The notes beneath the pieces are model-generated. The model was not told where the DNA came from. It saw nothing but the letters and a program-made list of their open reading frames with translations, and searched no databases. The translations under genes were made by a program, and so were the position numbers. From contig NZ_CP150300.1 in NCBI RefSeq assembly GCF_037991315.1, forward strand, positions 1,550,001 through 1,614,000: a DNA stretch of 64,000 nt, read 5' to 3'. This document shows, one piece after another, positions 29,984-43,688 of this stretch; the stretch's first letter is position 1; the number at the start of each line of letters is the position of its first letter. The DNA comes from Paenibacillus sp. FSL H8-0079. Lineage in GTDB: Bacteria; Bacillota; Bacilli; Paenibacillales; Paenibacillaceae.

Positions 29984-30100
29984 TTGTGTTATATGATATG
30001 CCTCATCATATTCGGGGGATTTAAAGGCTGAGCATTCAGGAATAATGTGGTATAATTTAAGCAGATGAGTTGATTATTACGGTTGGAAGGCGGTTCTTGT

Positions 30101-30538
30101 ATGCAGTCGATCTATGAGCGAATTGAACACCTGATTGCCGAACGAGGAATGACCAAGAAGGCTTTCTGCCAACAGCTGAAGATTAGCACAGGCAATCTGG
30201 GTGATTGGAAACGTGGCAAGTCTATTCCGAGTACGAATAAGTTAATTGAAATTGCTTCGTTTTTTGATGTGAGTCTCGACTGGCTCATGATTGGGCGTCC
30301 ATCGAAGGAAGCGATGGTGCGGGAAAAACGGGAGGATTATTTTTTTGACGTGTTGCGGCAATTGAATTGCCAGGAAAGCGAATTATCGACTGTGGAACAG
30401 TCTTTTATCAGTGAATATATCGAGTTTACCCGTTACCGTAAATCCAAGGAAAGCAAAGATGCAGGAGATTATCGCTATAAGCTGGAGAATAATTCAGGGA
30501 ATAAGATAGAGAATAAGTCTGAGGAAAACGAAGCGTAA
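30101..30538 (+). CDS. XRE-family HTH regulator
   Basis: 145 residues from the ATG at 30101 (AAGGCGG upstream); a TTG at 30083 is unlikely. The first 70 residues are a Cro/C1 HTH (IAERGMTKKAFCQQLKISTGNLGDWKRGKSIPSTNKLIEIASFFDVSLDWLM). The remainder is a charged, low-complexity tail rich in Lys, Glu and Asn. Its natural terminator has been split by the island: only the left half of the hairpin remains at 30570-30584. Target genes unknown. Confidence 0.88.
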   Translation: MQSIYERIEHLIAERGMTKKAFCQQLKISTGNLGDWKRGKSIPSTNKLIEIASFFDVSLDWLMIGRPSKEAMVREKREDYFFDVLRQLNCQESELSTVEQSFISEYIEFTRYRKSKESKDAGDYRYKLENNSGNKIENKSEENEA

Positions 30539-30633
30539 ACGATATGAGCATCCATAGACTGGATGTACAAAAACCTCTGGACTAATCCGAAAAATAAAGT
30601 GTACCCTTTGTAAAGGACATTTTGAAAAAAAAC

Positions 30634-31032
30634 TAGGCAACTTGTTGAAGCTGCTGTCTGTATTTTACAGGCGGCAGCTTTTTCAAATTCTATTGCCCTC
30701 GATAATGATTATAGTACGTCATATAACTCTTAATTTCTCGTTTTACTTCTTCTAATGTTTCGCATTCTTTGATATTCGTTTCATCCTTAAAATGCCCAAA
30801 GAATGATTCTTGGGGAGCGTTATCCCAACAGTTTCCTCGTCGTGACATGGATTGAGTTAACCCCATTTTTTTCACTACGGATTGGAATTGTGGGTTCGTA
30901 TAATGAAAGCCTTGATCGGAATGGATTAAGGCATCTTTTGTTATATGTAATCGCCTGTTAACTGACAGCGATTACATTTGGGTTTCGCTTTAGCTGTTCT
31001 TGTTCTTTCTTAGTCAGTAATCTTTTTGTCAT
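30634..31032 (-). pseudogene. IS3 transposase remnant (start of OrfA fused to end of OrfB)
   Basis: The first 24 residues (ending NVIAVS) of an IS3 OrfA are followed after a deletion by HITKDALIHSDQGFHYTNPQ, containing the second catalytic Asp region of the DDE domain, then SRRGNCWDNAPQESFFGHFK with the final Glu. After YYNHYRGQ the conserved Trp codon is a TAG, and the natural end (NLKKLPPVKYRQQLQQVA, stop at 30634) lies beyond it. So it carries both a deletion and a nonsense mutation and cannot act. Confidence 0.85.
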
Positions 31033-31068
31033 AAGAGTTCCGCTCCAACCTCTTTTTTCATTATAATC

Positions 31069-31123
31069 AAAATCCCCTATAAGATGGACTTTTTTCAAAG
31101 TGTCCATTCTTATAGGGGATTTT
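31069..31123. repeat. palindromic IS end, copy P1
   Basis: ATCCCCTATAAGATGGAC, then TTTTTTCAAAGT, then GTCCATTCTTATAGGGGAT: a long inverted repeat at the left-hand IS terminus. A near-identical palindrome (P2) is at 41973-42028, the right border of the island. Confidence 0.8.
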
Positions 31124-31169
31124 AAACCTTCGCTTATAAAAGCTTTTTTTTCATATCACATAGTTAAAT

Positions 31170-31664
31170 CTAAATGAAGATCTCTAGATTAGCAGAAATT
31201 TTTTTGGATAACGAAATTAAAAGCTCCCGCTCCTGTTCCGAAAGATCTTGAGAAGCGACTTTCTCCATTTCCGTCCAAACAGCAGTAGCCTTATCCACAA
31301 GTTCTCGGCCAACTTCAGTTAGTTTAACAAGCGTGACACGACCATCCTTGGGCGAACGAGAACGAGTGACTAGCCCTGATTCCTCCAATCGCCGAACTGA
31401 TTTGGCAATCGTAGAATGATCAAGTCGCATAGTCCGTCCAAGACTTTGCTGCGATTGCCCATCTTGCTCCCCTAACTGCATCAACATAATTTCTTGACCT
31501 GGAAACAAACCAGCCTGACGCAACAAATGTGCGGCCAAACCACGGTGTGATCTAGCCATAGAGAAAATTGCGAAATTTATGATAAATTGCTGAATGACTT
31601 GCATATCCTTTTCAACTTTAGATGAATTGGAGATATGCTGGTTCTTTTTTTCAAAGTTACTCAT
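31170..31664 (-). CDS. MarR-family transcriptional regulator
   Basis: 164 residues from the ATG at 31664 (AAAGGTGATAAG upstream). Winged HTH in the middle: QSQQSLGRTMRLDHSTIAKSVRRLEESGLVTRSRSPKDGRVTLVKLTEVG, with the DGR wing loop typical of MarR. There is no Cys near the N-terminus of the type used by OhrR. The imperfect palindrome GTAG-N9-CTAC at 31703-31719 just upstream may be its own operator. It is followed on the same strand order by an old-yellow-enzyme gene located upstream, which it probably controls. Confidence 0.88.
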   Translation of the reverse strand: MSNFEKKNQHISNSSKVEKDMQVIQQFIINFAIFSMARSHRGLAAHLLRQAGLFPGQEIMLMQLGEQDGQSQQSLGRTMRLDHSTIAKSVRRLEESGLVTRSRSPKDGRVTLVKLTEVGRELVDKATAVWTEMEKVASQDLSEQERELLISLSKKISANLEIFI

Positions 31665-31746
31665 CTTTCTTATCACCTTTCCGCACTTACTTATTACCAA
31701 GCGTAGTGAATTAATCTACACTTCTAAAGGAGCGGAGTTGTAAATA

Positions 31747-31793
31747 AAAAAATGCGCCCATACTATAGCTTCAAATGCTGTAGTATGGTGCCG
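31747..31793 (-). terminator. terminator of the old-yellow-enzyme gene
   Basis: CCATACTATAGC at 31758 pairs with GCTGTAGTATGG at 31777-31788 around TTCAAAT; read on the minus strand it is followed by GCGCATTTTTTT. Confidence 0.8.
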
Positions 31794-31818
31794 CACAATA
31801 TGAAACTATAGTCACTGT

Positions 31819-32877
31819 TTATTTCATGGTTGGATAATCGGTATAGCCGTGACTGTCACCGCCATAAAAAGTTTTAGGGTCGGCTTCATTTAGGGATGCT
31901 CCTGATTTCAAACGCTCCACTAGATCAGGATTGGCCAGGGCCAAGGTTCCTACCGATACAATATCGGCCAAGTTATCTTTCAAGTCTCTATCCAGTTCTT
32001 CTAAAGGACGTCCCGGTCGATTGACGATAAGTACAGTTGGCCAAGCCAAACGTATATTCTTAAGCGTCTCTTCATCCCCGCCGTGTAGAATATGAAGGTA
32101 GGCTAAGTTAAGTTTCGCCAGCTCGGAAATCAAGTATTCATATACTTTGGGACCGTCTGTGCCTTCGATAAGATCCCCTAGAGGAACCCCAGGTGATAGT
32201 CGGATTGCTGTACGACTGGCTCCAATTTCCTCAGCTACTGCTTTCGCCACTTCGATGGCAAATTTAGCGCGATTTTCAATAGAACCTCCATAAGAATCGG
32301 TGCGTACGTTTGCATTCTCAGAAATAAACTGATGTATAAGATACCCGTTTGCCCCATGAATCTCTACACCATCAGCTCCGGCTTCTATGGCAGCTGCGGC
32401 GGCTTTGCGGAAATCCCCAATGGTTTCTTGAATTTCTTCCAAACCTAACTCACGCGGAACAGGAACATCTTGCATGCCTTTTGCAGTATACATTTGTGTC
32501 TTTGGGGCAATTGCTGAAGGTGCAACTGGCTGACGGTGATGAGGTGTATTTTCTGGATGTGACATGCGGCCTGCATGCATAAGCTGAATGAACAAATGCC
32601 CTCCTGCTTGATGAACACGATCAGTGATTTGTTTCCAGCCTTTAATGTGCTCATCCATATAAATACCTGGTGAAGATAGGTAACCTTGCCCATCCTCTGA
32701 TGGCTGAACTCCTTCACTGATTAAAAGCCCCATTGAAGCACGTTGTTCATAATACTCTGCACTATGTGTTCCAGGAGTGCCATCATAAAGAGCGCGTGAT
32801 CTAGTCATTGGGGCGAGTGCCAAACGATGTTGCAAATTTAAGTTTCCTACTGTAACTGATTTCCAAATTGTATTCAT
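31819..32877 (-). CDS. old yellow enzyme-family NADH:flavin oxidoreductase (alkene reductase)
   Basis: 352 residues from the ATG at 32875-32877, which has GAGGAG eight bases upstream; longer in-frame starts lack a site. The FMN TIM barrel has LALAPMTRSRA at the start, FIQLMHAGRMSHPE, DGVEIHGANGYLIHQFISENANVRTDSYGGSIENR in the middle (substrate His and Asn of HGAN) and LANPDLVERL at the end. Such enzymes (NemA, xenobiotic reductase) reduce activated alkenes, nitro compounds or quinones with NAD(P)H. A strong promoter with an operator lies upstream (32907-32952). Confidence 0.95.
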   Translation of the reverse strand: MNTIWKSVTVGNLNLQHRLALAPMTRSRALYDGTPGTHSAEYYEQRASMGLLISEGVQPSEDGQGYLSSPGIYMDEHIKGWKQITDRVHQAGGHLFIQLMHAGRMSHPENTPHHRQPVAPSAIAPKTQMYTAKGMQDVPVPRELGLEEIQETIGDFRKAAAAAIEAGADGVEIHGANGYLIHQFISENANVRTDSYGGSIENRAKFAIEVAKAVAEEIGASRTAIRLSPGVPLGDLIEGTDGPKVYEYLISELAKLNLAYLHILHGGDEETLKNIRLAWPTVLIVNRPGRPLEELDRDLKDNLADIVSVGTLALANPDLVERLKSGASLNEADPKTFYGGDSHGYTDYPTMK

Positions 32878-32906
32878 ATAAAAACTCCTCATAATTTTCT
32901 GATTAA

Positions 32907-32952
32907 ATGTTTCCGGCAACATAAATTTAACAGACAGTATTTTGATTGTCAA
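32907..32952 (-). promoter_or_regulatory. promoter and operator of the old-yellow-enzyme gene
   Basis: Minus strand: TTGACA (32947-32952), 17 bases, TAAATT (32924-32929), then the 16-bp near-palindrome ATGTTGCCGGAAACAT (32907-32922) overlapping the expected transcription start. The same 14-base core stands directly after another promoter at 33072-33118. Confidence 0.75.
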
Positions 32953-33071
32953 CACATTTACTTTTAACTAACAAGACTTGTTAAAGCAGCAAAAAAACAA
33001 CTGGCTTAGTTTCAAATTTCTCAAAACCAACAATAAATTTTGGCTTAGTAAAAACTCTTTTGAAAAATGCG

Positions 33072-33118
33072 TTGACGAAAGCATATCTCATTAGATATAT
33101 TCATGTTGCCGGAAACGT
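33072..33118 (+). promoter_or_regulatory. divergent promoter with matching operator
   Basis: TTGACG (33072-33077), 18 bases, TATATT (33096-33101), then ATGTTGCCGGAAAC at 33103-33116. The promoter points toward the Rrf2 gene 190 bases away; nothing else coding lies between, so it may originally have served a lost gene. The rest of 32953-33306 holds no gene. Confidence 0.6.
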
Positions 33119-33306
33119 ATTTGTAGTGAAAAGATTCTCTGCATAAAATGGAGATTCTAAAATACTTCAATGACAAGAAGCGCTGGCGACTCGTTATGAT
33201 AAGTTGACGTGTGGGTTCAAGTTGTTTTTTGATACTAGCATCCATTATGCTGACTTGCTAAAGTTTTAATACAAGCCTAAGAAAGGCTTTTGTGAAGGTG
33301 GATACG

Positions 33307-33720
33307 ATGAATAGTGAGTTAAGTGTTGCTTTGTATGTTCTTGTTCTTCTAGGTACAAATAAAGAAAGATTAACAAGTTCTCAAATTTCTGAATGTATTC
33401 AGGTACATCCAGCTAGAATACGTCATATCCTCAGTAAATTTAAGAAAAGTGGATACCTTGAGACAAAAGAAGGTAGCGATGGTGGTTATCTTCTATCACA
33501 AAATCCACAGGAAATTAATCTAAAAGATCTATATACGATGATTTCATCGAAACCACTTCATATTTCGAAGCGATCACTAAATTCTAAGGAAAGTTTTCCT
33601 GCAAAAGTGGACAATCAGTTGGAGTTTATTTTTAAAGCTTGTGAATTAAAGCTTTTACAACAACTTCAGGAGATCACCCTCGCAGATATGATAGATTCAA
33701 TCAACAATGCTTCAGGTTAA
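33307..33720 (+). CDS. Rrf2-family transcriptional regulator
   Basis: 137 residues from the ATG at 33307, preceded by GAAGGTGG. Winged HTH: SVALYVLVLLGTNKERLTSSQISECIQVHPARIRHILSKFKKSGYLETKEGSDGGYLLSQ. The three-Cys Fe-S cluster motif of IscR/NsrR is absent, and only one Cys lies in the C-terminal part, so it belongs to the cluster-free group such as CymR/YwnA/Saro types. It is followed two bases later by a MarR gene, making a two-regulator operon. AT-rich codon use sets it apart from the core genes. Confidence 0.87.
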   Translation: MNSELSVALYVLVLLGTNKERLTSSQISECIQVHPARIRHILSKFKKSGYLETKEGSDGGYLLSQNPQEINLKDLYTMISSKPLHISKRSLNSKESFPAKVDNQLEFIFKACELKLLQQLQEITLADMIDSINNASG

Positions 33721-33722
33721 CA

Positions 33723-34211
33723 ATGAATCCAGAAAGCAATAAATTCAACATTGGTGAGCCCATGGAGAGGAACATAATATTTATGGAGAAAGTCTACACG
33801 CTGTATACTGACGTAATTTATTCTCTGAAAATGGTTAATAATCAACTTAATACTAATCTTGACAAAAAAGGAAAAACCAATTGGACCAGATGTCAAATTT
33901 TAAGATATCTAACGGATATGAGTGAATGTACTCAAACATCGTTACAGAGAGCTATTAATATAGATCATGCAGCAATAACCAGACATCTTCAAATACTCGA
34001 AGTAAACGGGGATATATTTCGAAAACGTAACCCCGATAATCTTCGGGAAAATATAATTCAGATTACTGAGCAGAGTCTTTCAACCTATAACTCTTATTCT
34101 ATTAGTCACATGGATTTGTATGAGGAAATATTCAAGGAACTCGACTCGAAAATGCTTGTGACACTTTTAGATAATCTGAAGAAGTTGGACAATAATTTAG
34201 AATCTATATAA
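33723..34211 (+). CDS. MarR-family transcriptional regulator
   Basis: Up to 162 residues; the ATG at 33723 is two bases after the Rrf2 stop, but ATGs at 33762 (after GGTGAG) and 33783 are also possible. The winged HTH is central (QTSLQRAINIDHAAITRHLQILEVNGDIFRKRNPDNLRENIIQITEQ). AT-rich composition like its neighbour. A terminator at 34237 closes the operon. Likely targets are the adjacent DoxX promoter with its repeated boxes, but that is inference. Confidence 0.85.
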   Translation: MNPESNKFNIGEPMERNIIFMEKVYTLYTDVIYSLKMVNNQLNTNLDKKGKTNWTRCQILRYLTDMSECTQTSLQRAINIDHAAITRHLQILEVNGDIFRKRNPDNLRENIIQITEQSLSTYNSYSISHMDLYEEIFKELDSKMLVTLLDNLKKLDNNLESI

Positions 34212-34236
34212 TTATCTTGTTTACATTAACAATTTT

Positions 34237-34268
34237 AGCCTTAATCCTTACGAGGGTTTAAGGCTTTT
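34237..34268 (+). terminator. terminator of the Rrf2-MarR operon
   Basis: GCCTTAATCC pairs with GGGTTTAAGGC around TTACGA, followed by TTTTC. Confidence 0.75.
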
Positions 34269-34334
34269 CATTTATGTCCCTGTTTAACCCAAAAGAAAAG
34301 ATGACATCGAATCATGTAGTACATATTGTTTTTA

Positions 34335-34398
34335 TTGACACTAATATAGTCTAATGTTAGGATGTTTTTACCCTAATATTAGGATGAATAATGTTAGG
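34335..34398 (+). promoter_or_regulatory. DoxX promoter with three repeated operator boxes
   Basis: TTGACA (34335-34340), 17 bases, TAGGAT (34358-34363). Three related boxes are CTAATGTTAG (34351-34360), the perfect palindrome CCTAATATTAGG (34372-34383) and TAATGTTAGG (34389-34398). They cover the -10 element and start site, as a repressor would. Confidence 0.65.
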
Positions 34399-34414
34399 GT
34401 AAAAGGGGGGAGTA

Positions 34415-34738
34415 ATGAATATTTTATCAATTGTTCTTCAAGTTATATTGGGGTTAGGATTTCTAATGTTTGGATTTATGAAGTTTGGGTCAAAGCAAAT
34501 GGTGGAAGGATTTAAGCATTATATGATCGAAGTCATTTCAGCGGTATTCATTATTGCAGGTATTTGGAGTAAGAGTTTAGCTGCATGGGGAGGTTTACTC
34601 ATCGTAGTGACAATGCTAGGTGCCATAATTACTCATATTAAAATAAAAGATCAAATGAAACAAATGCTAATGCCTATTATTTGATTAATTCTTGGATTAG
34701 CAGTATTACTAATAAATTTCGAATCTTTGTTTGCATGA
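34415..34738 (+). pseudogene. DoxX-family membrane protein, broken
   Basis: The frame begins with the DoxX signature (VLQVILGLGFLMFGFMKFGSKQMVEGFKHY), jumps directly to MIEVISAVFIIAGIWSK so that about 12 residues expected between the first two helices are missing, and meets a TGA at 34682-34684 after LMPII. The same frame continues past the TGA with LILGLAVLLINFESLFA and a proper stop at 34738. So there is a small deletion plus a nonsense codon. DoxX-like proteins are often induced with quinone or thiol stress genes. Confidence 0.8.
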
Positions 34739-34756
34739 ATGCTTAGTTAATCTAAG

Positions 34757-35139
34757 GAGAAATTAAAATAGGAATTCAAATTATTCAAACTGGCTCTGGT
34801 GTGTATCATGCTGAGGCTTTAAAGGAACCAACAGAAGCCTCTCAAATCTGGTTTGAACCACACTTAAGCCAAGCAGTAAAACGTGCACCTATCTATTTAC
34901 AATACGAATCTAATCATTTTTCCTTAATAGATAAAGATGGTGTAACAATTAAAAGACTTTTAGGAAACCATTCACCAATGCAACTCGTGACGGATGCCCA
35001 AATGTGGGATGTAATCATTCCACAGGGAAAAGTATATACCCATAGTCTTTCGTTAAATCGTACATTGGCTGGTTTAGTCATCAGAGGGGATGGAACTCTT
35101 TCATCAGACACGATTGAAGCAAATTTTGTAGTTATCTAG
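34757..35139 (+). pseudogene. pirin-family (bicupin) protein, N-terminal part missing
   Basis: About 125 codons matching the second half of a pirin: IQIIQTGSGVYHAEALKEP and the following cupin strands (SQIWFEPHLSQAVKRAPIYLQY). The normal N-terminal cupin with metal-binding His residues is absent. An AAGGAG lies at 34755, but no ATG; the frame reads from the middle of the fold, and a GTG at 34801 would omit the family's HAE motif neighbours. Best treated as a truncated gene. Confidence 0.7.
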
Positions 35140-35154
35140 CGGGAGATCTGGTGA

Positions 35155-35226
35155 ATGCTTCATGGAGATGAACAAAGTCAGATAGATTTACGGTTATTTC
35201 GTGTGGAGGTGAAGGCAAGTAAATAA
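35155..35226 (+). pseudogene. MarR-family gene remnant, first 23 codons
   Basis: MLHGDEQSQIDLRLFRVEVKASK then stop. It closely matches the opening of the broken MarR gene at 36040 (MFQGDEQSEIDLQLFRVWVKASK), also at DNA level (GGAGATGAACAAAGT). A leftover of a duplicated regulator; what follows to 35340 is not recognisable. Confidence 0.7.
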
Positions 35227-35382
35227 GAAAAGCTTCCCATGAAATTACGTTAGCCGACGTCTATGTTGCTGTCAAAAAGTGAATACACGGAAGTCTATGA
35301 GAATGTCAATTGCATTGAGGCGCAGGTCCGCGCCGCTTAATCATATAAACCGAGAAAATCAAAAAAACAAGGAGTGAGAGCT

Positions 35383-35955
35383 ATGCTACAACCAATGGAG
35401 CAATTTTCGATGTACTCTTATCCGGGAATCGTCGCGTCGATCACTTCCCGTCATGATGGTAAACAAAATTTGATGTCAGCAGGATGGCACACATTAATAT
35501 CGTATCAACCGGCGATATATGGGATTTCAATTCGAAAAGAAACATATTCATACAACTTAATTTTAGAAAGTGGATCTTTCGGAATCAATTTTCTTCCTTC
35601 GAGCCGTTCCAACTGGATTCAAGCCGGAGGTACGTTTTCTGGTAACCAGAAGGATAAACTAAAAGAATTTGATATTTCATATCGTGATGGAAAGAAATTG
35701 GATATCCCTATTCTCACAGATGCGTACGGTGCATACGAATGCAAAATCCTAGATATCCACTCCTATGGCAGCCACGAATTTATTACTGGTGAAATTGTGC
35801 AATCCTATCGCGATGACTCTCTATTCCAAGAGGATGGAATTCCTGATTTGACCAAGCTGCAAATACCACTGTACTTAGGAAGATCAACTTATTTGACGGT
35901 TGACGATACATTAAAATCCACAGATCATCCTTTTTATCTAGAGAAAAATGAATAA
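35383..35955 (+). CDS. flavin reductase-family protein
   Basis: 190 residues from the ATG at 35383 behind AAGGAGTGAGAG. An FMN-binding split barrel of the flavin reductase/DIM6-NTAB type: YPGIVASITSRHDGKQNLMSAGWHTLISYQPAIYGISIRK (N-terminal strands and FMN loop), then SYNLILESGSFGINFLPS and EFITGEIVQSYRD. It is not closely similar to the 25904 protein. Placed between two MarR remnants, it was probably under MarR control. It may supply reduced flavin or reduce an electrophile directly. Confidence 0.87.
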   Translation: MLQPMEQFSMYSYPGIVASITSRHDGKQNLMSAGWHTLISYQPAIYGISIRKETYSYNLILESGSFGINFLPSSRSNWIQAGGTFSGNQKDKLKEFDISYRDGKKLDIPILTDAYGAYECKILDIHSYGSHEFITGEIVQSYRDDSLFQEDGIPDLTKLQIPLYLGRSTYLTVDDTLKSTDHPFYLEKNE

Positions 35956-36039
35956 CGAGTCTTTGAAGTCATTATGAAAAGTTGTAGGGCAAAGCTGGTA
36001 TACTCATCGCTAATGTTGGTCATTTAGGAGGTCCACTGA

Positions 36040-36434
36040 ATGTTTCAAGGAGATGAACAAAGTGAAATTGATTTACAGCTTTTCCGTGTGTGGGTGAAGG
36101 CAAGTAAAAGTGTTTTTGGCCATGTCGTAAAAGATATAGAACGATATGGAATTAGTAATATATAAGTGAGAAATTTTCTATCCCTAGTGGGAGTATCACA
36201 TATGTTGTAGATAAGCTTGAAAAGAAAAAATTAGTGAAAAGGGAGCCAAGTCTAACAGACCGTCGATCTTCAAATGTAGTCCTAACTGACAAGGGCCAAA
36301 ATTTATTTAAAGAAATCTTTCCTCAACACATTGAAGTCATATCTGAAAATTTGTCTTCTATAAGTAATGAGGAAAAAATACAGTTAACGGATCTTCTCAA
36401 AAGACTTGGGCTAGGTGCTAGTAATATTATGTAG
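36040..36434 (+). pseudogene. MarR-family regulator, broken (MhqR-like)
   Basis: The first frame (ATG 36040, AGGAGG upstream) reads MFQGDEQSEIDLQLFRVWVKASK ... DIERYGISNI and stops near 36165. A second frame resumes with FSIPSGSITYVVDKLEKKKLVKR, the recognition helix and wing (SLTDRRSSNVVLTDKG) and ends at 36434. About 25-30 residues of the HTH entry are missing and the frame is shifted. MhqR-type regulators control quinone-responsive genes such as azoR and flavin reductases. Confidence 0.75.
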
Positions 36435-37062
36435 GTATCATTTATTAAAAAACACACCAAAATTTTAAAAATAAGCCGTGGGAATCAGGAAGGATATACT
36501 CCTGGCAGTCCACGGCTGTTTGTGATTTTCTTACAAAAACACACAAAAAATTAGCTGGCGAGTATATGAAGCAGAGGTGGTCAAGATAGTGATCCTTACC
36601 CTAATTATATACAACTTTTCTGTTCCAAATCGGTCAAACAGCTTCCTGCATCCACAATTCAGTGGAACAAAGTGTGGAGTATAGCAAAATTAAATCAGTC
36701 AGCCCTCTTCTTTACCTTTATGTGGATATAGCTGATGCAGCTAGAATTTTCTTGAAGAAATCGGTAGGGATCAAACAGGCAGTACTCAGATATTGGGTTT
36801 GGTAGAGACGGGCTGTTTCAGGGTGGTACCAGACTAGAGGAGCATAGCCAGCATGCACAGGTATTTGCTGTATTGATATAGGTCATGAGTGAAATTCAAG
36901 CACGGAACTTATGGGTGGACTGGTCAAAGTAAATGAAAAAAAAGTTGAGTACAGGGGCATCAATCTCAAGGTAGAGACACCTGGAGGGGGAAATGTTAAT
37001 TAACTTTATTACTGCGGCCGCCTAAATTGAACCTGCAATTAACTTGGTATTGAAAAAGATAC
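36435..37062. other. non-coding or decayed stretch within the island
   Basis: Roughly 630 bases without a believable gene. A stem-loop at 36474-36518 (AGCCGTGG with CCACGGCT, followed by GTTTGTG) may terminate the MarR remnant transcript. A 30-codon frame at 36908-37003 (MGGLVKVNEKKVEYRG...) has no ribosome site and no known match. The rest looks like degraded sequence. Confidence 0.5.
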
Positions 37063-37130
37063 TTGACATAGCAGACTAGTTGTAACTATAATGATTACAA
37101 CATATGAGTTGTAACTTTTTTAGTTACAAT
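37063..37130 (+). promoter_or_regulatory. strong promoter with two 23-bp operators before the FrnE-like gene
   Basis: TTGACA (37063-37068), 18 bases, TATAAT (37087-37092). Operator 1, GTTGTAAC-N7-ATTACAAC, is at 37079-37101 across the -10 element. Operator 2, GTTGTAAC-N7-GTTACAAT, is at 37108-37130. Both have the same 8-7-8 geometry, with centres 29 bp apart. Confidence 0.8.
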
Positions 37131-37157
37131 AAATTTATCTGAAAAGGAGTTACCTAA

Positions 37158-37871
37158 ATGAAAATAGAAGTTTGGTCGGATTTTGCATGTCCCTTTTGTT
37201 TTATCGGGAAACAAAGGTTCGAAAGAGCACTAGAACAATTTGCTAACAAGGAAGACGTCAAAGTTGTTTTCAAAACTTTCGAATTAGATCCCAAAGCTCC
37301 AAAAAGCGTAGATCATGATGTACATGACATGTTGGTCGGCAAATATGGAATGAGCCGTGAGCAAGCCATCACCATGAATAACAATATCGGCAAGGAAGCC
37401 GAAGATGCTGGACTTGCGTTTCATTTTGATTCGATTCAACTGACCAATACGTTTGATGCCCACCGAATAGCGAAATACGCATCAGAGCATGGAAAAGTGA
37501 GAATAATACAAGACTTTTTTAAGGCATACTTTACGGAAGGTCGGCATTTAGGGGATCATGAAACCTTAATTGAATTAGCTGTACAAGCAGGGTTTAACGA
37601 GGACGAGATTCGCCATGTTCTTAACGGAGATGAGTATGCTAAAGAGGTTCGTATGGATGAGGAGGAAGCACAACGACTTGGCGCAACGGGTGTTCCTTTC
37701 TTTGTGATTGATCGGAAGTATGCTTTATCTGGAGCACAATCAAGCGATAAATTCCTGCAAACTCTGACAACAGCTTGGAAGGATTCCCAGCCGTTGCAAT
37801 TGTTAAATGATACCGCTGTGGATTCAGAATCCACAGATACATGCAGTGATGGAGCATGCAGCATCAAGTAA
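37158..37871 (+). CDS. FrnE-like DsbA-family oxidoreductase
   Basis: 237 residues with the active-site CPFC at residues 11-14 (MKIEVWSDFACPFCFIGK). The thioredoxin fold is interrupted by the helical DsbA insertion and closes with the cis-Pro loop GVPFFVID and YALSGAQSSDKF, as in FrnE. No signal peptide, so it works in the cytosol, where FrnE proteins act as thiol isomerases or glutathione-type transferases in oxidative stress. A short Cys-containing tail (DTCSDGACSIK) is added. AAAAGGAGTTACC precedes the ATG. It heads a run of four genes on the plus strand. Confidence 0.92.
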   Translation: MKIEVWSDFACPFCFIGKQRFERALEQFANKEDVKVVFKTFELDPKAPKSVDHDVHDMLVGKYGMSREQAITMNNNIGKEAEDAGLAFHFDSIQLTNTFDAHRIAKYASEHGKVRIIQDFFKAYFTEGRHLGDHETLIELAVQAGFNEDEIRHVLNGDEYAKEVRMDEEEAQRLGATGVPFFVIDRKYALSGAQSSDKFLQTLTTAWKDSQPLQLLNDTAVDSESTDTCSDGACSIK

Positions 37872-37964
37872 TGTAGCGATCAGTTGTGTGTTTGCAGGTC
37901 CAGATCATTTCAATATCGGAACAACATATTATTAAAAAAAACGATTTAAAAGGAGTCAATAATT

Positions 37965-38771
37965 ATGTCTAATTTGTCGATTGAAGTATTTACAGGTTCC
38001 TCCCAAGCTTTTAACGTTAACTCGGCTATCGTATATGGAGAAAAGGATGCGGTTCTAGTCGATGCTCAATTTTTGCTTAGCGATGCGCACCGTCTTACGG
38101 CCAGATTGCTTGAATTAGGAAAAAACTTGACGCACATCTACGTAACCCACTTTCATCCAGATCACTATTTCGGTCTGCAGGTTGTAAAATCGGTGTACCC
38201 TCAAGCTCAGGTACTGGCGTTGGCAGAAACAGTTGAGGACATCAAAAATACATTTGCCAAAAAAATTGCTCAATGGAAGCCTACAGTTGGAAACAACGTT
38301 CCAGACGTACCAGTAATCCCAGATGTTCTGGATCAGGATATCATCGAACTCGAGGGACATGAACTGAAGATCAAGGGTCGCCTGCAAGGGGACACACCAA
38401 ATAACAGTTATGTATGGATTCCTTCGATTAAAGCGCTCATTACCGGAGATATTGTTTATAATGATACCTTTGTATGGACGCTTGAAACCAATACAGAATC
38501 CCGTCAGGCATGGCATCAGACTTTGGATGAATTGCAGTCGCTGAATCCTGAAATCGTGGTCGCAGGCCATCAGGCTTACAATACGGAAAATACCCCTGAA
38601 GCCATCGCACACACTCGTCGCTACCTCGTTGCTTTTGATGAAGTGCTGAGCGAATCACCGACAACAGATCAAATTATTGCTAAAGTGAAATCTCGCTTCC
38701 CAGAGCTGAATACTGTCGAAATTGGCTTAATCCTTGCCGCCAAAGCTTTCGGGGTGAACCATGCCGAGTAA
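37965..38771 (+). CDS. metallo-beta-lactamase-fold hydrolase
   Basis: 268 residues, no signal peptide. The zinc-binding motif is intact: THFHPDH with H62, H64, D66, H67, and further ligands in GDIVY (Asp) and GHQAY (His). It resembles the 'MBL fold metallo-hydrolase' group that includes lactonases and glyoxalase II-like proteins. AAAAGGAGTC precedes the ATG. The stop overlaps the start of the NTF2-like gene by 11 bases, so the two are coupled. A paralogue with a damaged metal site follows at 39251. Confidence 0.9.
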   Translation: MSNLSIEVFTGSSQAFNVNSAIVYGEKDAVLVDAQFLLSDAHRLTARLLELGKNLTHIYVTHFHPDHYFGLQVVKSVYPQAQVLALAETVEDIKNTFAKKIAQWKPTVGNNVPDVPVIPDVLDQDIIELEGHELKIKGRLQGDTPNNSYVWIPSIKALITGDIVYNDTFVWTLETNTESRQAWHQTLDELQSLNPEIVVAGHQAYNTENTPEAIAHTRRYLVAFDEVLSESPTTDQIIAKVKSRFPELNTVEIGLILAAKAFGVNHAE

Positions 38772-39156
38772 TCTGGGAATCATAAGAAGCACGTATGAAG
38801 GAGATTCTAAAGAAAACGGTGTGAAGTACCAGACCTATTTGGCGGAATATGCGGAATGGACAGAAGCTGCAGGTTTTCCTTACGCTGGAACATATATCGG
38901 ATATGATGAAATCTTTAAAAATGTTTTCTCCCGTCTGGGAACGGAATGGGACGGATATAAAGCAGAAGTCAGCGAGTTTTATGAAGATGGAGATACCATT
39001 GTTGCGGTAGGTGTGTATTCAGGAACTTACAAACAGACGGGTAAATACTTCGAAGCAGATTTTGTGCATATATGGAAGCTTGAAGATCAAAAGATTTTGA
39101 AATTTAAGCAATATGTTGATAGTTACCTAGTACAGCGTGCCATGGTGTCTGAATAA
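38761..39156 (+). CDS. NTF2-like (SnoaL-type) protein
   Basis: 131 residues. The pattern IRSTYEGDSKENGVKYQTYLAE ... IGYDEIFKNVFSRLGTEWDGYK ... FYEDGDTIVAVGVYSGTYKQTGKYFEADFVHIWKLEDQKILKFKQYVDS is that of a SnoaL/ketosteroid-isomerase-like single-domain cone fold. It overlaps the MBL gene by 11 bases, so it is probably made in proportion to it. The substrate is unknown; such proteins are isomerases, cyclases or simple ligand binders. Confidence 0.85.
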   Translation: MPSNLGIIRSTYEGDSKENGVKYQTYLAEYAEWTEAAGFPYAGTYIGYDEIFKNVFSRLGTEWDGYKAEVSEFYEDGDTIVAVGVYSGTYKQTGKYFEADFVHIWKLEDQKILKFKQYVDSYLVQRAMVSE

Positions 39157-39250
39157 TTGGTTCATAAATGCAAATAGGCAGAGGATGAATATATCGTTGA
39201 AATCATGGTTGGTTTATTATCGTAATCGAAAAAGAGAGGAAGATTTATAA

Positions 39251-40219
39251 ATGTTAAGCAAAAAATCATCAATTGGAGCTCTTTTGTTATTGTGTTTTAT
39301 GTTAGTACTGAGTGCATGTTCTACAACAGCAAGTGGGACGAATAGTGCCACAGATACTTCGTCGAATACCGATACAACCAGTACGGCAAGTGAAGAAACG
39401 GAAAAGTCGTCAGTCGATCTCAAGATCACAACATTTAACCCAGGAGCAAACAGCGTATTCGCAGTCTCCTCAAGCCTGATTGAAGGACCGAATGAAGTGG
39501 TGCTCGTTGATGCCCAGTTCCAAAAAAATGATGCACAGCAAGTAGTCCAAATGATTCGTGACACCGGAAAGACACTGACTACAGTTTATGTAAGCCACAA
39601 AGACCCGGATTTCTACTTTGGTCTGTCGGAGATCAAAGCAGCATTTCCTGATGTGAAAATAGTCGCTCCCCCGGCCACTGTAGAAGGGATCACAGAAACA
39701 ATTCAGGTAAAGAATGATTATTGGAATCCAATCTTGAAGGAAAATGCACCGACCGCGCAAATCATTCCCGATGTTCTTGATGGCGATAATCTGACAGTTG
39801 ATGGGGAAGCAATACAAGTAATCGGTCTCGATGGTCCAGATCCTTCTCATACTGTCCTTTGGGTTCCGTCGAAAAAGACGATCCTGGGTGGTGTTCCGAT
39901 CTTCGAAAACCAGCATGTGTGGATGGCAGATAACCAGACTCCAGAGAGTCGCGACGAGTGGCGTGAAATTCTGGACCAGATCCTTGCCCTGAATCCAGAG
40001 CGGGTTATACCTGGTCATTACCTCGGTGAGAGCGCTGGAGATACATCCAGCATAACATTCACCAAGGACTACATTGCTAAATTCGAAGCTGAAACAGAGA
40101 AAACCAAGGATTCCAAAGAACTGATTGCGGCGATGCAAGCAGCATATCCAGATTTCAATAATATTAGTGTCCTGGAAACGAGTGCCCAGGTCATTAAAGG
40201 TGAGATTTCCTGGCCATAA
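39251..40219 (+). CDS. MBL-fold lipoprotein with degenerate metal site
   Basis: 322 residues. A lipoprotein signal peptide (LLLLCFMLVLSAC, lipobox Cys at 23) and a Ser/Thr-rich spacer precede an MBL domain that aligns along its length with the protein at 37965. At the metal site the sequence is SHKDPDF (H116-F121) in place of THFHPDH, and the bridging Asp of GDIVY is replaced (GGVPIF), while the last GH motif remains. With three ligands lost it is unlikely to bind two zinc ions. It may be a binding protein or pseudoenzyme at the cell surface. AGAGGAAG lies before the ATG. Confidence 0.85.
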   Translation: MLSKKSSIGALLLLCFMLVLSACSTTASGTNSATDTSSNTDTTSTASEETEKSSVDLKITTFNPGANSVFAVSSSLIEGPNEVVLVDAQFQKNDAQQVVQMIRDTGKTLTTVYVSHKDPDFYFGLSEIKAAFPDVKIVAPPATVEGITETIQVKNDYWNPILKENAPTAQIIPDVLDGDNLTVDGEAIQVIGLDGPDPSHTVLWVPSKKTILGGVPIFENQHVWMADNQTPESRDEWREILDQILALNPERVIPGHYLGESAGDTSSITFTKDYIAKFEAETEKTKDSKELIAAMQAAYPDFNNISVLETSAQVIKGEISWP

Positions 40220-40342
40220 TTTAACGTGAACTCCGAGAATTAGATTTGGAGGTTTACATCATTGGTTACATCATTAAAACGCCCGGGTTAATACCGAAGC
40301 CACTGAAGAACTTTGCTTTTTTCAAGTAGTGGATAACGTTTA

Positions 40343-40398
40343 GCCAAAAAAGAAGACATTTACACCCAAGTATTGGGTGTTATGTCTTCTTTTTTGGC
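40343..40398. terminator. bidirectional terminator after the MBL lipoprotein
   Basis: GCCAAAAAAGAAGACAT pairs with ATGTCTTCTTTTTTGGC around an inner ACACCC/GGGTGT stem. It may derive from the end of the IS1182 element. Confidence 0.85.
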
Positions 40399-40425
40399 AT
40401 TATTTGTTTGTGTTCTCTATTCTCC

Positions 40426-40985
40426 TTACTCTGCTAACTTCAATATTCGTTTTAAGTTCACAGCAAATATGGCCATTGCACCTTGTAATTGCATGCCAAG
40501 TAAACCCGAAGATAGGGCTATATCGTAGCCGTGTCCATGTTTGAGTTCACTGTTTTTTGCTTCAATTTTGTAACGTTCTCTAGATTTCTCTTTGAAATAT
40601 TCCGTTTCTTGAAATGCCATTTGTTTGGCATGTTCTTCAGATTTTATCGAAACGGAATACGTCTTGCTTTTCGCACCTTCTTTGTAGCAACCTTCCTTCA
40701 ATGGACAACGTACACATCGCTTTACATCAAAATAATAAGTATGTGTTTGGTTTTACCAATACTTTTCTTGCCTTGCCGAGCCTTGCGGACGGCCATATGC
40801 CCAGCTGGACACACGTACCGCCCTGCATCCTTGTTAAACAGGAATTCTTCTTCCTTTTTACGGTTGCCTTGCGTAATCAGTGGATTCAATTTCGCTACAA
40901 GTTCAATCTCATTTTTATGGGTGTAAATAATATTATCCCTCTCGGAATAAGCTGCGTCTCCAATGACGGTCTTCACCTGTAAATC
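40426..40985 (-). pseudogene. IS1182-family transposase, C-terminal fragment with frameshift
   Basis: Minus strand. VIGDAAYSERDNIIYTHKNEIELVAKLNP ... RYVCPAGHMAVRKARQGKK, then a frameshift near 40730, then KEGCYKEGAKSKTYSVSIKS ... AKNSELKHGHGYD to the end at 40426. This is the DDE/C-terminal part of an IS1182-type transposase, the N-terminal half being replaced by an IS30 fragment at 40985. Confidence 0.85.
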
Positions 40986-41846
40986 GAGTGAATGAGCGAG
41001 ATCATCATCATACACTCCCGCGAGATCGGTACCTTTAGGGAAAAACTCTCTAAGCAACCCGTTCGCATTCTCGTTGGATCCGCGTTGCCAGGATGAATAC
41101 GGATCAGCAAAATAAACGTGCAGGTTATGGGTGGTTTCTAGATTGGCATAGTGTGCAAACTCCTTGCCTCGGTCAGCCGTGGCTGCTGTGAGAAAGGTTA
41201 CCGTGGGATACTGTGAGATCGCTACACCGAGCGCAATCTCCATCGACAAAGCGGTGCGATCGGGCATGAGAACAGCGGTATATAGACGCGTTTTGCGTTC
41301 AATCAACGTCGCTACGCGGCCTTTACTATTCCCACGACCCGATACAACGGTATCCAGTTCCCAGTGCTCAAACGTTTCACGGGAACGACTTCTTTCGGGT
41401 GATCTGTAATAGTTTTTCCAATGGCGAATTTACCGCGCGTTTCTACGGGTTTCTGACGCTTCCCTTTGTGCCAAAGAACCTGTTATACGCCTCGAACCAG
41501 GCGCCCAGCTTAGATCCAGCAATAAATGGTTTTGAAAGAGACTGTACGCCGCCCTTCGGTGATTTGTTCCGGAGACCACTTTGCCTCCAGTTTTTCCAGT
41601 GAACCAGCCAAGGCGTCTGACCTATTCCCTGGAAAGACCGAAGCCTTACGACACGCTTCTCATAAGCATTCTGATCTTGTTCTGCCTGGTAAGGATGTGA
41701 TGAAGCCACACGATCTAACTCACGACAAATCGTTGATGGATGCCTACCTACCCAGTTCTTTCGCAATCGATCTTGAGCTTTTACCTTTGTCTGTGGAGGA
41801 TCTCTAACTTACTGGTTTCGATTATGCTAAGATGTCTGTAGCTCAT
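40986..41846 (-). pseudogene. IS30-family transposase, truncated and frameshifted
   Basis: Minus strand, ATG at 41844-41846 with GGAG upstream (MSYRHLSIIETSKLEILHRQR). Several frames are needed: GRHPSTICRELDRVASSHPYQAEQ (the HTH), the region near 41400, and IERKTRLYTAVLM ... TADRGKEFAHY ... YFADPYSSWQRGSNENANGLLREFFPKGTD (the DDE domain with the Glu in NEN). It breaks off after DDLAHSL, where the IS1182 fragment begins in the same frame. The last part of the IS30 protein and one IS end are missing. Confidence 0.85.
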
Positions 41847-41972
41847 GGTTGGATTCTCCTTGTGTGAATGGTGTTGTGGTGACTTCATTCTACACGAATC
41901 CGGCCATGGGCCATTTTTTATTTATTTCCAGTAGGTGTCGCACTTCATATTACAATTCGTCTCATTATCAAC

Positions 41973-42028
41973 AAAATACCCTATAAGGTGGACTTTTTTC
42001 AAAGTGTCCATCTTATAGGGTACATTTT
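41973..42028. repeat. palindromic IS end, copy P2 (right border of island)
   Basis: TACCCTATAAGGTGGAC, TTTTTTCAAAGT, GTCCATCTTATAGGGTACA. It matches P1 at 31069 and is all that remains of an IS3-type element here. Confidence 0.75.
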
Positions 42029-42091
42029 ATAATCCGAACACACTCGGAGACAGTTCAGAGGTTTTTTTGTGTTAACTTATGCTCCATATCT

Positions 42092-42940
42092 TTATTTACG
42101 AAAGACGAGGGTTTCTTTGCCTAGCAGATGGGGGCGGAGTGTATTCCAGATCTGAAGACATTGCTCCTGAAGCTCCCAAGCTGCCATGCCAAGGAGTCGA
42201 ACGCCGATGCCGCCGGTTGCCAACAAACTCGCCCCTGCGAGCATTCGTCCATCTGGTGGCAGAGCGGATCTGACCTGTTCCAGCTCCGCAGTGCCCAGTC
42301 CTGGGGCAATCATCCACAATGCAGCCGTGTGAGTATAGTGAAGGAGGGATGCTGAGTGTTTGGGGTCATCGGTTTCCGGTTCGAGTCCGAATCGATCCCA
42401 GACAGCCAGTTTCTCGCCTTGCCATATCTCCGTCAAGCTGCGGTAACGCTCAAATTGGAATGCTTCTCCCCGATGAATCCGTCCGGCAGACCAGATGTCT
42501 GCATAGGCCAGAATCGCCTGGTCTTCCAGCTCAAAGGTTACAGCGAGGGATGATGAACTGCCTTTGAAGGGAATCACACATTCAGGAAAGTATTCCAGTG
42601 TGGCCCCTTTTCCCAACCGAAAGTGATGATTAACGGATGAAGGAATGGAAGGTGTAGGATGAAGTCTGGTAGCAGATGTGCTGCTCAGCATGACATGGGT
42701 GCCTTCCCCTAATTCCCACTGGGAATGATAATGATCCCCGTTAAGGACTCCGGGAGAGACGTCTGACGTGTACACACATAATTCGGTTCCACCTCCGGGA
42801 GGTCGAAAGGATCGGCTAAACCGGAGAGGCGCACTGTAATAACGATCGGTCATGACAGTGCGCTCACCTTGAAAGGCAAAGGTGGCTCGAAGCTCGCTGC
42901 GGCGCGTGACGGGCTCACTTGCACTTTCGTTCCGATTCAT
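42092..42940 (-). CDS. ureD: urease accessory protein UreD (UreH)
   Basis: 282 residues from the ATG at 42938-42940 (GGGAACAG upstream), 28 bases after ureG. An in-frame extension to 43081 overlaps ureG and has no ribosome site, so it is rejected. UreD features: SELRATFAFQGERTVMTDRYYSAPLRFSRSF at the start, SQWELGEGTHVMLSSTSATRLHP, FRLGKGATLEYFPECVIPFKGSS and YADIWSAGRIHRGEAFQFERY. It forms the UreD-UreF-UreG scaffold that delivers nickel to urease. Last gene of the operon; its terminator is the right half of the hairpin at 42052. Confidence 0.92.
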   Translation of the reverse strand: MNRNESASEPVTRRSELRATFAFQGERTVMTDRYYSAPLRFSRSFRPPGGGTELCVYTSDVSPGVLNGDHYHSQWELGEGTHVMLSSTSATRLHPTPSIPSSVNHHFRLGKGATLEYFPECVIPFKGSSSSLAVTFELEDQAILAYADIWSAGRIHRGEAFQFERYRSLTEIWQGEKLAVWDRFGLEPETDDPKHSASLLHYTHTAALWMIAPGLGTAELEQVRSALPPDGRMLAGASLLATGGIGVRLLGMAAWELQEQCLQIWNTLRPHLLGKETLVFRK

Positions 42941-42968
42941 CTCTGTTCCCGTAGGAACGGAAGATGAA

Positions 42969-43688
42969 TTAATGCGAGTGAGTGCCATGCTCATGGCTGT
43001 GTGAATGCAGATGTGCAGCGGAAGCATCGTCATCCATATATTGATGTTCAAGCCAGTGGACAATCTCGGATACACCTTCACCGCTCATTAGATTAGACAT
43101 GACATAAGGACGGCCTTCGCGTACCCGCTCGGTATCATTTTTCATCACTTCCAGGCTTGCTCCAACGTAAGGGGCGAGGTCGGTTTTGTTAATTAACAGC
43201 AGATCTGAACGCGTGATGCCGGGACCGCCTTTGCGAGGAAGTTTCTCTCCTTGGGCAACGTCGATAATGTAGATGAACACATCAGCCAGTTCCGGACTGA
43301 ATGCAGCAGAGAGATTATCGCCGCCGCTCTCGATGAAGATCAGTTGCAGATCCGGGAAGCGTTCAATCAACTCGTCAACTGCTTCAAAATTCATGGAGGC
43401 ATCCTCACGAATAGCCGTGTGCGGGCATCCGCCTGTCTCAACGCCGATAATACGCTCTGGTGCCAATGCATTCTGACGCAGCAAAATCTCGGCATCTTCT
43501 TTGGTGTAAATGTCATTTGTGATGACAGCAAGGCTATAACGTGTACGCAGTGCCTTGGACAGCTTCTCCACAAGGGCTGTTTTACCTGAACCTACCGGTC
43601 CACCAATGCCAATTCGCATCGGACGACTCCGATCAAATTCGTTGCGTTTCCACTCCGGATGATGCGTATGATTAGCTCCTCCACACAT
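42969..43688 (-). CDS. ureG: urease accessory GTPase UreG
   Basis: 239 residues. The P-loop is GPVGSGKT (residues 30-37); SIMIBI-class features are NDIYTKEDA, the nickel-binding CPH in [28 protein letters not shown] and [11 protein letters not shown]. There is a His-containing N-terminal extension ([11 protein letters not shown]) and a His-rich C-terminus ([14 protein letters not shown]), which may store nickel in the absence of ureE. GTP hydrolysis drives nickel insertion into UreC. RBS TAGGAGGAATTG. Confidence 0.97.

Follow-up and report, generated by a model that had tools for sequence, protein, structure and literature searches.

How did some 11.4 kb of DNA come to lie between the two halves of one transcription terminator? 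This question is raised by the junction of an XRE-type HTH gene and a UreD gene in the window, that is, the whole stretch of 64,000 nucleotides of Paenibacillus sp. FSL H8-0079 that was analysed. An earlier note had described the split hairpin and a flanking AATCCGA, and we located both arms and both copies of the repeat as described, to within one base. The naming of the two convergent genes also holds. The junction contains the following features.

30083-30538, XRE-type HTH gene, convergent with the UreD gene
30570-30590, left half of the split XRE-ureD terminator, with the first AATCCGA at its end (sequence, relatives' empty site, fold)
30583-30591, first copy of the 9-bp repeat TAATCCGAA (sequence)
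30592-30594, three unexplained A between the first repeat copy and the IS end (sequence)
42030-42038, second copy of the 9-bp repeat TAATCCGAA (sequence)
42031-42068, inner hairpin together with the right half of the split terminator, T run included (sequence, relatives' empty site, fold)
42092-43081, UreD gene

The left half-hairpin, AAAAACCTCTGGACTAATCCGA, has its last base at 30590, and position 30591, at which it had been said to stop, is the next A. On the right, the partner arm and its T run extend to 42068. AATCCGA is indeed present on both sides, but the shared word is longer and measures 9 bp. Rejoining the flanks with one copy of this repeat kept gives 134 nt that fold at -44.9 kcal/mol with the whole stem formed. 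To call this terminator perfect is slightly generous, as one pair of the outer stem is G-T and the outer and inner stems are separated by a small internal loop.

The ancestral sequence predicted in the earlier note exists in relatives without the island. The rejoined core, GGACTAATCCGAACACACTCGGAGACAGTTCAGAGGTTTTT, is identical to the site in G008, G011 and the same-species genome G052, all of which have an uninterrupted hairpin with a single TAATCCGAA, and the site in G002 differs from it by one loop base. Two more distant relatives (G001 and G003) have an intact hairpin at the same junction. These sites come from a right-flank search of 20 genomes, own genome included, in which seven matched (own and six relatives), and from a left-flank search that added G052; the junction was read in six of the seven relatives, as the flanks of G009 matched only partly. 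The check proposed in the earlier note thus comes out as predicted, and neither of its refuting conditions holds. As a hint for annotation, a terminator found split next to the end of a gene may point to an insertion sequence (IS), with the rejoined flanks giving the ancestral site.

The borders of the island are the ends of an IS3-family element

What had been missed is that the outer bases of the island are the two ends of an IS that habitually enters terminators. Inverted ends lie just inside the repeats, TAAAGTGTACCC at 30595 and TAAAATGTACCC on the other strand at 42029, and these are the right and the left end, respectively, of an IS3-family element. Searching the genome for the end motif yielded 16 matches, eight per strand (one and zero in the control), which form seven pairs and one stray pair. 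Six of the pairs each bound an intact unit of 1,465 bp, and the pair in the window spans 11.4 kb. The intact units (L024-L029) contain two overlapping frames of an IS3-family transposase, and a related copy, L062, has a single open frame, 474 codons long. OrfB of L024 scored 265.8 bits with NF033516 (cut-off 160) and contains an rve domain, which identifies it as an IS3-type transposase. Relatives of the element, often fragments, were found by DNA search in 52 of the 75 genus genomes, own genome included. The termini of the window element read TAAAATG...CACTTTA and those of many relatives TGAACTG...CAGTTCA; the latter end in CA, and the terminal repeats of the IS3 family are described as ending in 5'-CA-3' (PMC6211511).

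Copies of the element and its relatives often lie in terminators

We compared the sites of related copies using a strict test, in which a stem with at least three G-C pairs has to bridge the insertion point, with AAAA or TTTT at its outer end. This test replaced one based on duplex energy, which discriminated poorly (76% of sites versus 57% of random positions at -12 or lower); with an A/T-run condition added, the energy test was passed by 47 of 67 sites versus 136 of 3296 positions. As an automatic inverted-repeat search for IS ends often chose terminator arms instead, ends were set by motif or by aligning copies, with the end base placed by hand for L258-L261, L268 and L269. Ends were set for 72 copies, half of them from a genus panel of 40 loci (36 copies; L077, L086, L087 and L093 had no ends and were left out) and half from a scan of named genomes with 80 loci, mostly Bacillota and including some Paenibacillus (36 copies). 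Both 40-nt flanks were available at 67 sites, the other five (L094, L115, L124, L146 and L152) missing a full flank.

Each of the six intact copies in the own genome interrupts another terminator hairpin and passes the strict test; the duplication is a clean 3 bp in five and 2 bp in one. Across the sample, in which copies in one genome and related elements are not independent of each other, the test was passed at 40 of 67 sites (25/35 in the genus panel and 15/32 in the scan), as against 31 of 2458 random window positions and 24 of 2680 positions in the same loci. When flanks were swapped between sites, 136 of 1325 combinations passed, and the signal therefore stems in part from a composition that the arms share. 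The duplication measures 3 bp at 51 of the 67 sites and 3 or 4 bp at 55; sites with 3-4 bp passed in 38 of 55 cases, those without in 2 of 12. We take a 3-bp duplication to be only suggestive of the IS150 subgroup of IS3. The 27 sites that fail the strict test stay in the count, and by eye many of them resemble weak terminators and a few have no partner arm at all. The orientation of the terminators relative to the IS shows no clear trend, the T run being the longer tract at 22 of the 40 passing sites and the A run at 11, with seven ties.

Pass rates at the scan loci fall with transposase identity, from 5/7 at 60% or more through 5/10 at 55-60% and 3/8 at 50-55% to 2/7 below 50%, so either the pattern is weaker in more distant elements or the test is less able to detect it there. 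Further copies came from an order-wide search of 296 genomes, some of which, or their genera, had been seen before; 40 loci were taken and nine of these were unscored. With ends set by motif, 9 of 17 of these copies passed versus 24 of 1360 background positions, and with ends set by aligning copies 9 of 14 passed, 13 of the 14 having a 3-bp duplication. The habit of entering terminators is common to a wide IS group. In addition, the same terminator can be struck repeatedly, as L075 (G044) and L082 (G062) occupy homologous terminators one base apart, with duplications AGT and GTC.

We consider it likely that the IS3-family element entered the XRE-ureD terminator because its transposase selects terminators. 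It is somewhat unlikely that the IS group targets any palindrome rather than terminators as such. Hairpin geometry is the common feature of the sites, and the A/T tracts may simply tag along, as most intergenic palindromes are terminators; the strict test, which always demanded stem and tract together, provides nothing decisive against this.

The island is an element with a replaced interior

The DNA between the two terminator halves is composed as follows.

30595-30947, minus strand, right part of an IS3-family element, 353 nt, 99.2% identical to six intact copies, right end at 30595 (alignment)
30648-30680, hairpin within the right part with a T run on the inner side, conserved in 45 aligned related elements (sequence, alignment)
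30942-31117, minus strand, diverged left-end relic of a related IS, about 179 nt, 87.7% identical to intact copies, fused to the right part (alignment)
31124-31150, minus strand, possible half-terminator of the marR gene beside the relic, seen by eye, no partner arm found (sequence)
31170-40219, cargo region, all genes (ORF profile scan)
31170-31700, minus strand, MarR
31819-32955, minus strand, old yellow enzyme-like flavin oxidoreductase
33292-33720, plus strand, Rrf2
33723-34211, plus strand, MarR
34415-34684, plus strand, DoxX-like
35374-35955, plus strand, flavin reductase-like
37158-37871, plus strand, DsbA-like
37965-38771, plus strand, MBL-fold
38761-39156, plus strand, SnoaL-like
39251-40219, plus strand, MBL-fold (last)
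40296-40979, minus strand, remnant of the IS1182 family with 90% identity to an element in G011 (alignment)
40984-41961, minus strand, IS30-family remnant, 89% identical to three copies at other places in this genome, with one end abutting the IS3 left end (alignment)
41962-42029, minus strand, left end of an IS3-family element, 68 nt, 94.1% identical to intact copies (alignment)
41977-41998 and 42001-42022, arms of the left-end hairpin (sequence)

As IS ends form both borders and gene modules and other IS remnants lie between them, the island is an IS3-family element whose interior was replaced by other ISs and metabolic genes. One cargo module resembles a cluster elsewhere in the own genome (75-83% in pieces), and another matches part of G070 at 87% identity. 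The left edge of the cargo may be another old terminator insertion, as the relic adjoins the possible half-terminator at 31124-31150.

The terminator of the last MBL-fold gene is complete in G070 and broken in the window at 40270-40300, about where the IS1182-family remnant starts. A second kind of IS may thus also have entered a terminator. Near the edge of the same remnant lies a palindrome (40343-40398) whose outer arms, 17 bp each, match perfectly and enclose an inner hairpin. The cargo also contains an 82-bp direct repeat at 35142-35223 and 36027-36108, the two copies being 82% identical.

The two junctions of the island are not alike. The right junction fits a TAA duplication, whereas TCCGAA plus AAA intervene at the left one. 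AATCCGA had been put forward, explicitly as an inference, as an ordinary target duplication; we reject this reading, as related copies show 3-4 bp, compared with 9 bp plus AAA here. With 9 bp duplicated and three extra A, the two junctions are probably not the products of one clean insertion. The left end differs from the genome's copies at 4 of 68 bases and the right part at 3 of 353 (Fisher p 0.015), and this different divergence of the two ends is a weak hint of two origins. Most likely, the 9-bp repeat reflects two insertions at slightly different points of the XRE-ureD terminator that were joined by recombination within the IS. Such a history is plausible given the repeat strikes on one terminator seen in L075 and L082.

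Alternatively, the island may have arrived as one composite transposon, a unit bounded by two ISs that made an irregular 9-bp duplication. One right and one left end do face outward like those of a single unit, with the relic left end inside. However, the 9-bp repeat plus AAA is not the ordinary duplication of this IS group, which measures 3-4 bp, no second copy of the whole unit was found in the own genome, and the whole cargo appeared in no other genome among the matches listed for the 75 genus genomes minus own (four candidates per genome scored). We therefore regard arrival as one unit as unlikely, and prefer separate insertions into the terminator followed by recombination.

A tendency to insert near the hairpin apex

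The sites all come from living genomes, so selection has acted on them, and broad insertion could in principle leave copies only at harmless spots such as gene ends, where terminators are common. Three observations make survivorship of this sort a very unlikely explanation. First, random intergenic positions in the window pass the strict test in just 84 of 3000 cases. Second, the insertions tend toward the apex of the hairpin, with both arms starting at most 8 nt from the insertion at 29 of the 40 passing sites versus 12 of the 84 passing controls. Third, none of the three IS30-family copies in the same genome lies, by eye, within a hairpin loop, although one lies just after a terminator. It is highly improbable that the island is of a site-specific, integrase-type kind with AATCCGA as its core site, as the 9-bp direct repeat at both flanks might suggest, since at both borders the outermost bases belong to IS ends shared with intact copies, 0 and 3 bp from the repeats, and no integrase or other recombinase was found in the part of the ORFs that was scanned.

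Selection of terminators by the transposase remains our preferred reading, and the closest known systems are IS1397 and ISKpn1, IS1272 of the IS1182 family, and the group IIC introns. IS1397 and ISKpn1 are IS3-family elements that insert in REP sequences, or palindromic units, and their transposases appear to be responsible for this choice (PMC1525189). They share with our element both the family and the palindromic intergenic targets, but their targets belong to one repeat family, whereas here the hairpin arms are mostly unrelated (by eye) and are accompanied by A/T tracts. IS1272 of Staphylococcus also targets inverted repeats without shared sequence; it replaces the stem-loop and makes no duplication (PMC5678879), whereas here both arms are kept at passing sites and a 3-bp duplication prevails. 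Group IIC introns likewise recognise DNA hairpins such as those of terminators (PMC3898094). Unlike our element they are retroelements, another class altogether, and enter after the hairpin instead of near its apex. Finally, the IS1447-like elements are an IS3-family group that is, like ours, widespread in Firmicutes; they are cited here for transcriptional slippage, not for their targets (PMC6211511). In the literature searched, which lacked most subscription papers and any IS database, we found no IS3-family group aimed at terminators, and a prior description is possible; two accounts considered in connection with terminators (PMC12056078 and PMC6382973) have no bearing on the question.

A terminator-seeking IS group is of more interest than the island itself. 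Insertion into hairpins at gene ends would seem to let the element spread while leaving genes unbroken. If confirmed, it would mean that a transposase reads the shape of a functional DNA site, for which cruciform, single-strand and A/T-tract models are testable, and it would provide a natural gene-sparing strategy and predict, by a simple rule, which places in these genomes allow islands to grow. If the copies truly land at the ends of transcription units, recombination between them would shuffle whole transcription units.

Hairpins carried by the element

The element carries hairpins at both of its ends. At the left end, the terminal repeat pairs with its own inverted copy to form a hairpin; single folds of 50 distinct ends gave 10 or more pairs in 47, of which 43 have TTTT at the foot. 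At the right end, about 50-90 bp into the element, 45 aligned elements retain a hairpin of 12 pairs, 6 of which show paired changes; a T run usually lies on the inner side of this hairpin. The end-hairpin alignments omit L152, L156 and L171, and the right-end one omits L145 and L158 as well. RNAalifold recovered only 8 pairs on the left ends, which we think is due to a slipped alignment. The right-end hairpin overlaps the end of the transposase coding region; as this stretch also codes for the transposase tail, its conservation does not in itself establish that it is a terminator. The left-end repeat may equally be a binding site for the transposase. We infer that an inserted element makes up for the terminator it has broken and protects its own gene against transcription coming in from outside.

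A likely course of events at the XRE-ureD junction would then be as follows. An element of about 1,465 bp would have inserted into this terminator, its transposase selecting intrinsic terminators and joining near the hairpin apex, normally with 3 bp duplicated, so that the stem arms came to lie on opposite sides of the element. The left-end hairpin, followed by T, and the right-end hairpin, with its inner T run, would have acted as replacement terminators, such that transcription from either neighbour still stopped and the transposase gene was shielded. Later, the resident element would have been gutted, by IS30 entering a left end and then by the IS1182 remnants and gene modules, leaving the right part fused to the diverged left-end relic.

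On a broader reading, for and against which we see about equal weight, this would be the behaviour of a Bacillota-wide IS3-family lineage. Its transposase would read terminator structure (a hairpin or dyad plus A/T tracts) and not sequence, and would paste the element near the apex. As the element would bring its own terminators at both ends, each jump would turn one terminator into two, and islands would be assembled from terminator to terminator.

Two further observations concern the hairpins of the element. The stray pair of end motifs in the own genome (G000:C1:4718810-4718867; L022, L023 and L030) consists of inward-facing ends 34 bp apart and 58 bp across, with no element attached, and is possibly a solo end hairpin. 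In L272, the sequence to the left of the IS copy is similar to the left-end hairpin of a different IS from this group, which suggests that this element entered a sibling's own hairpin.
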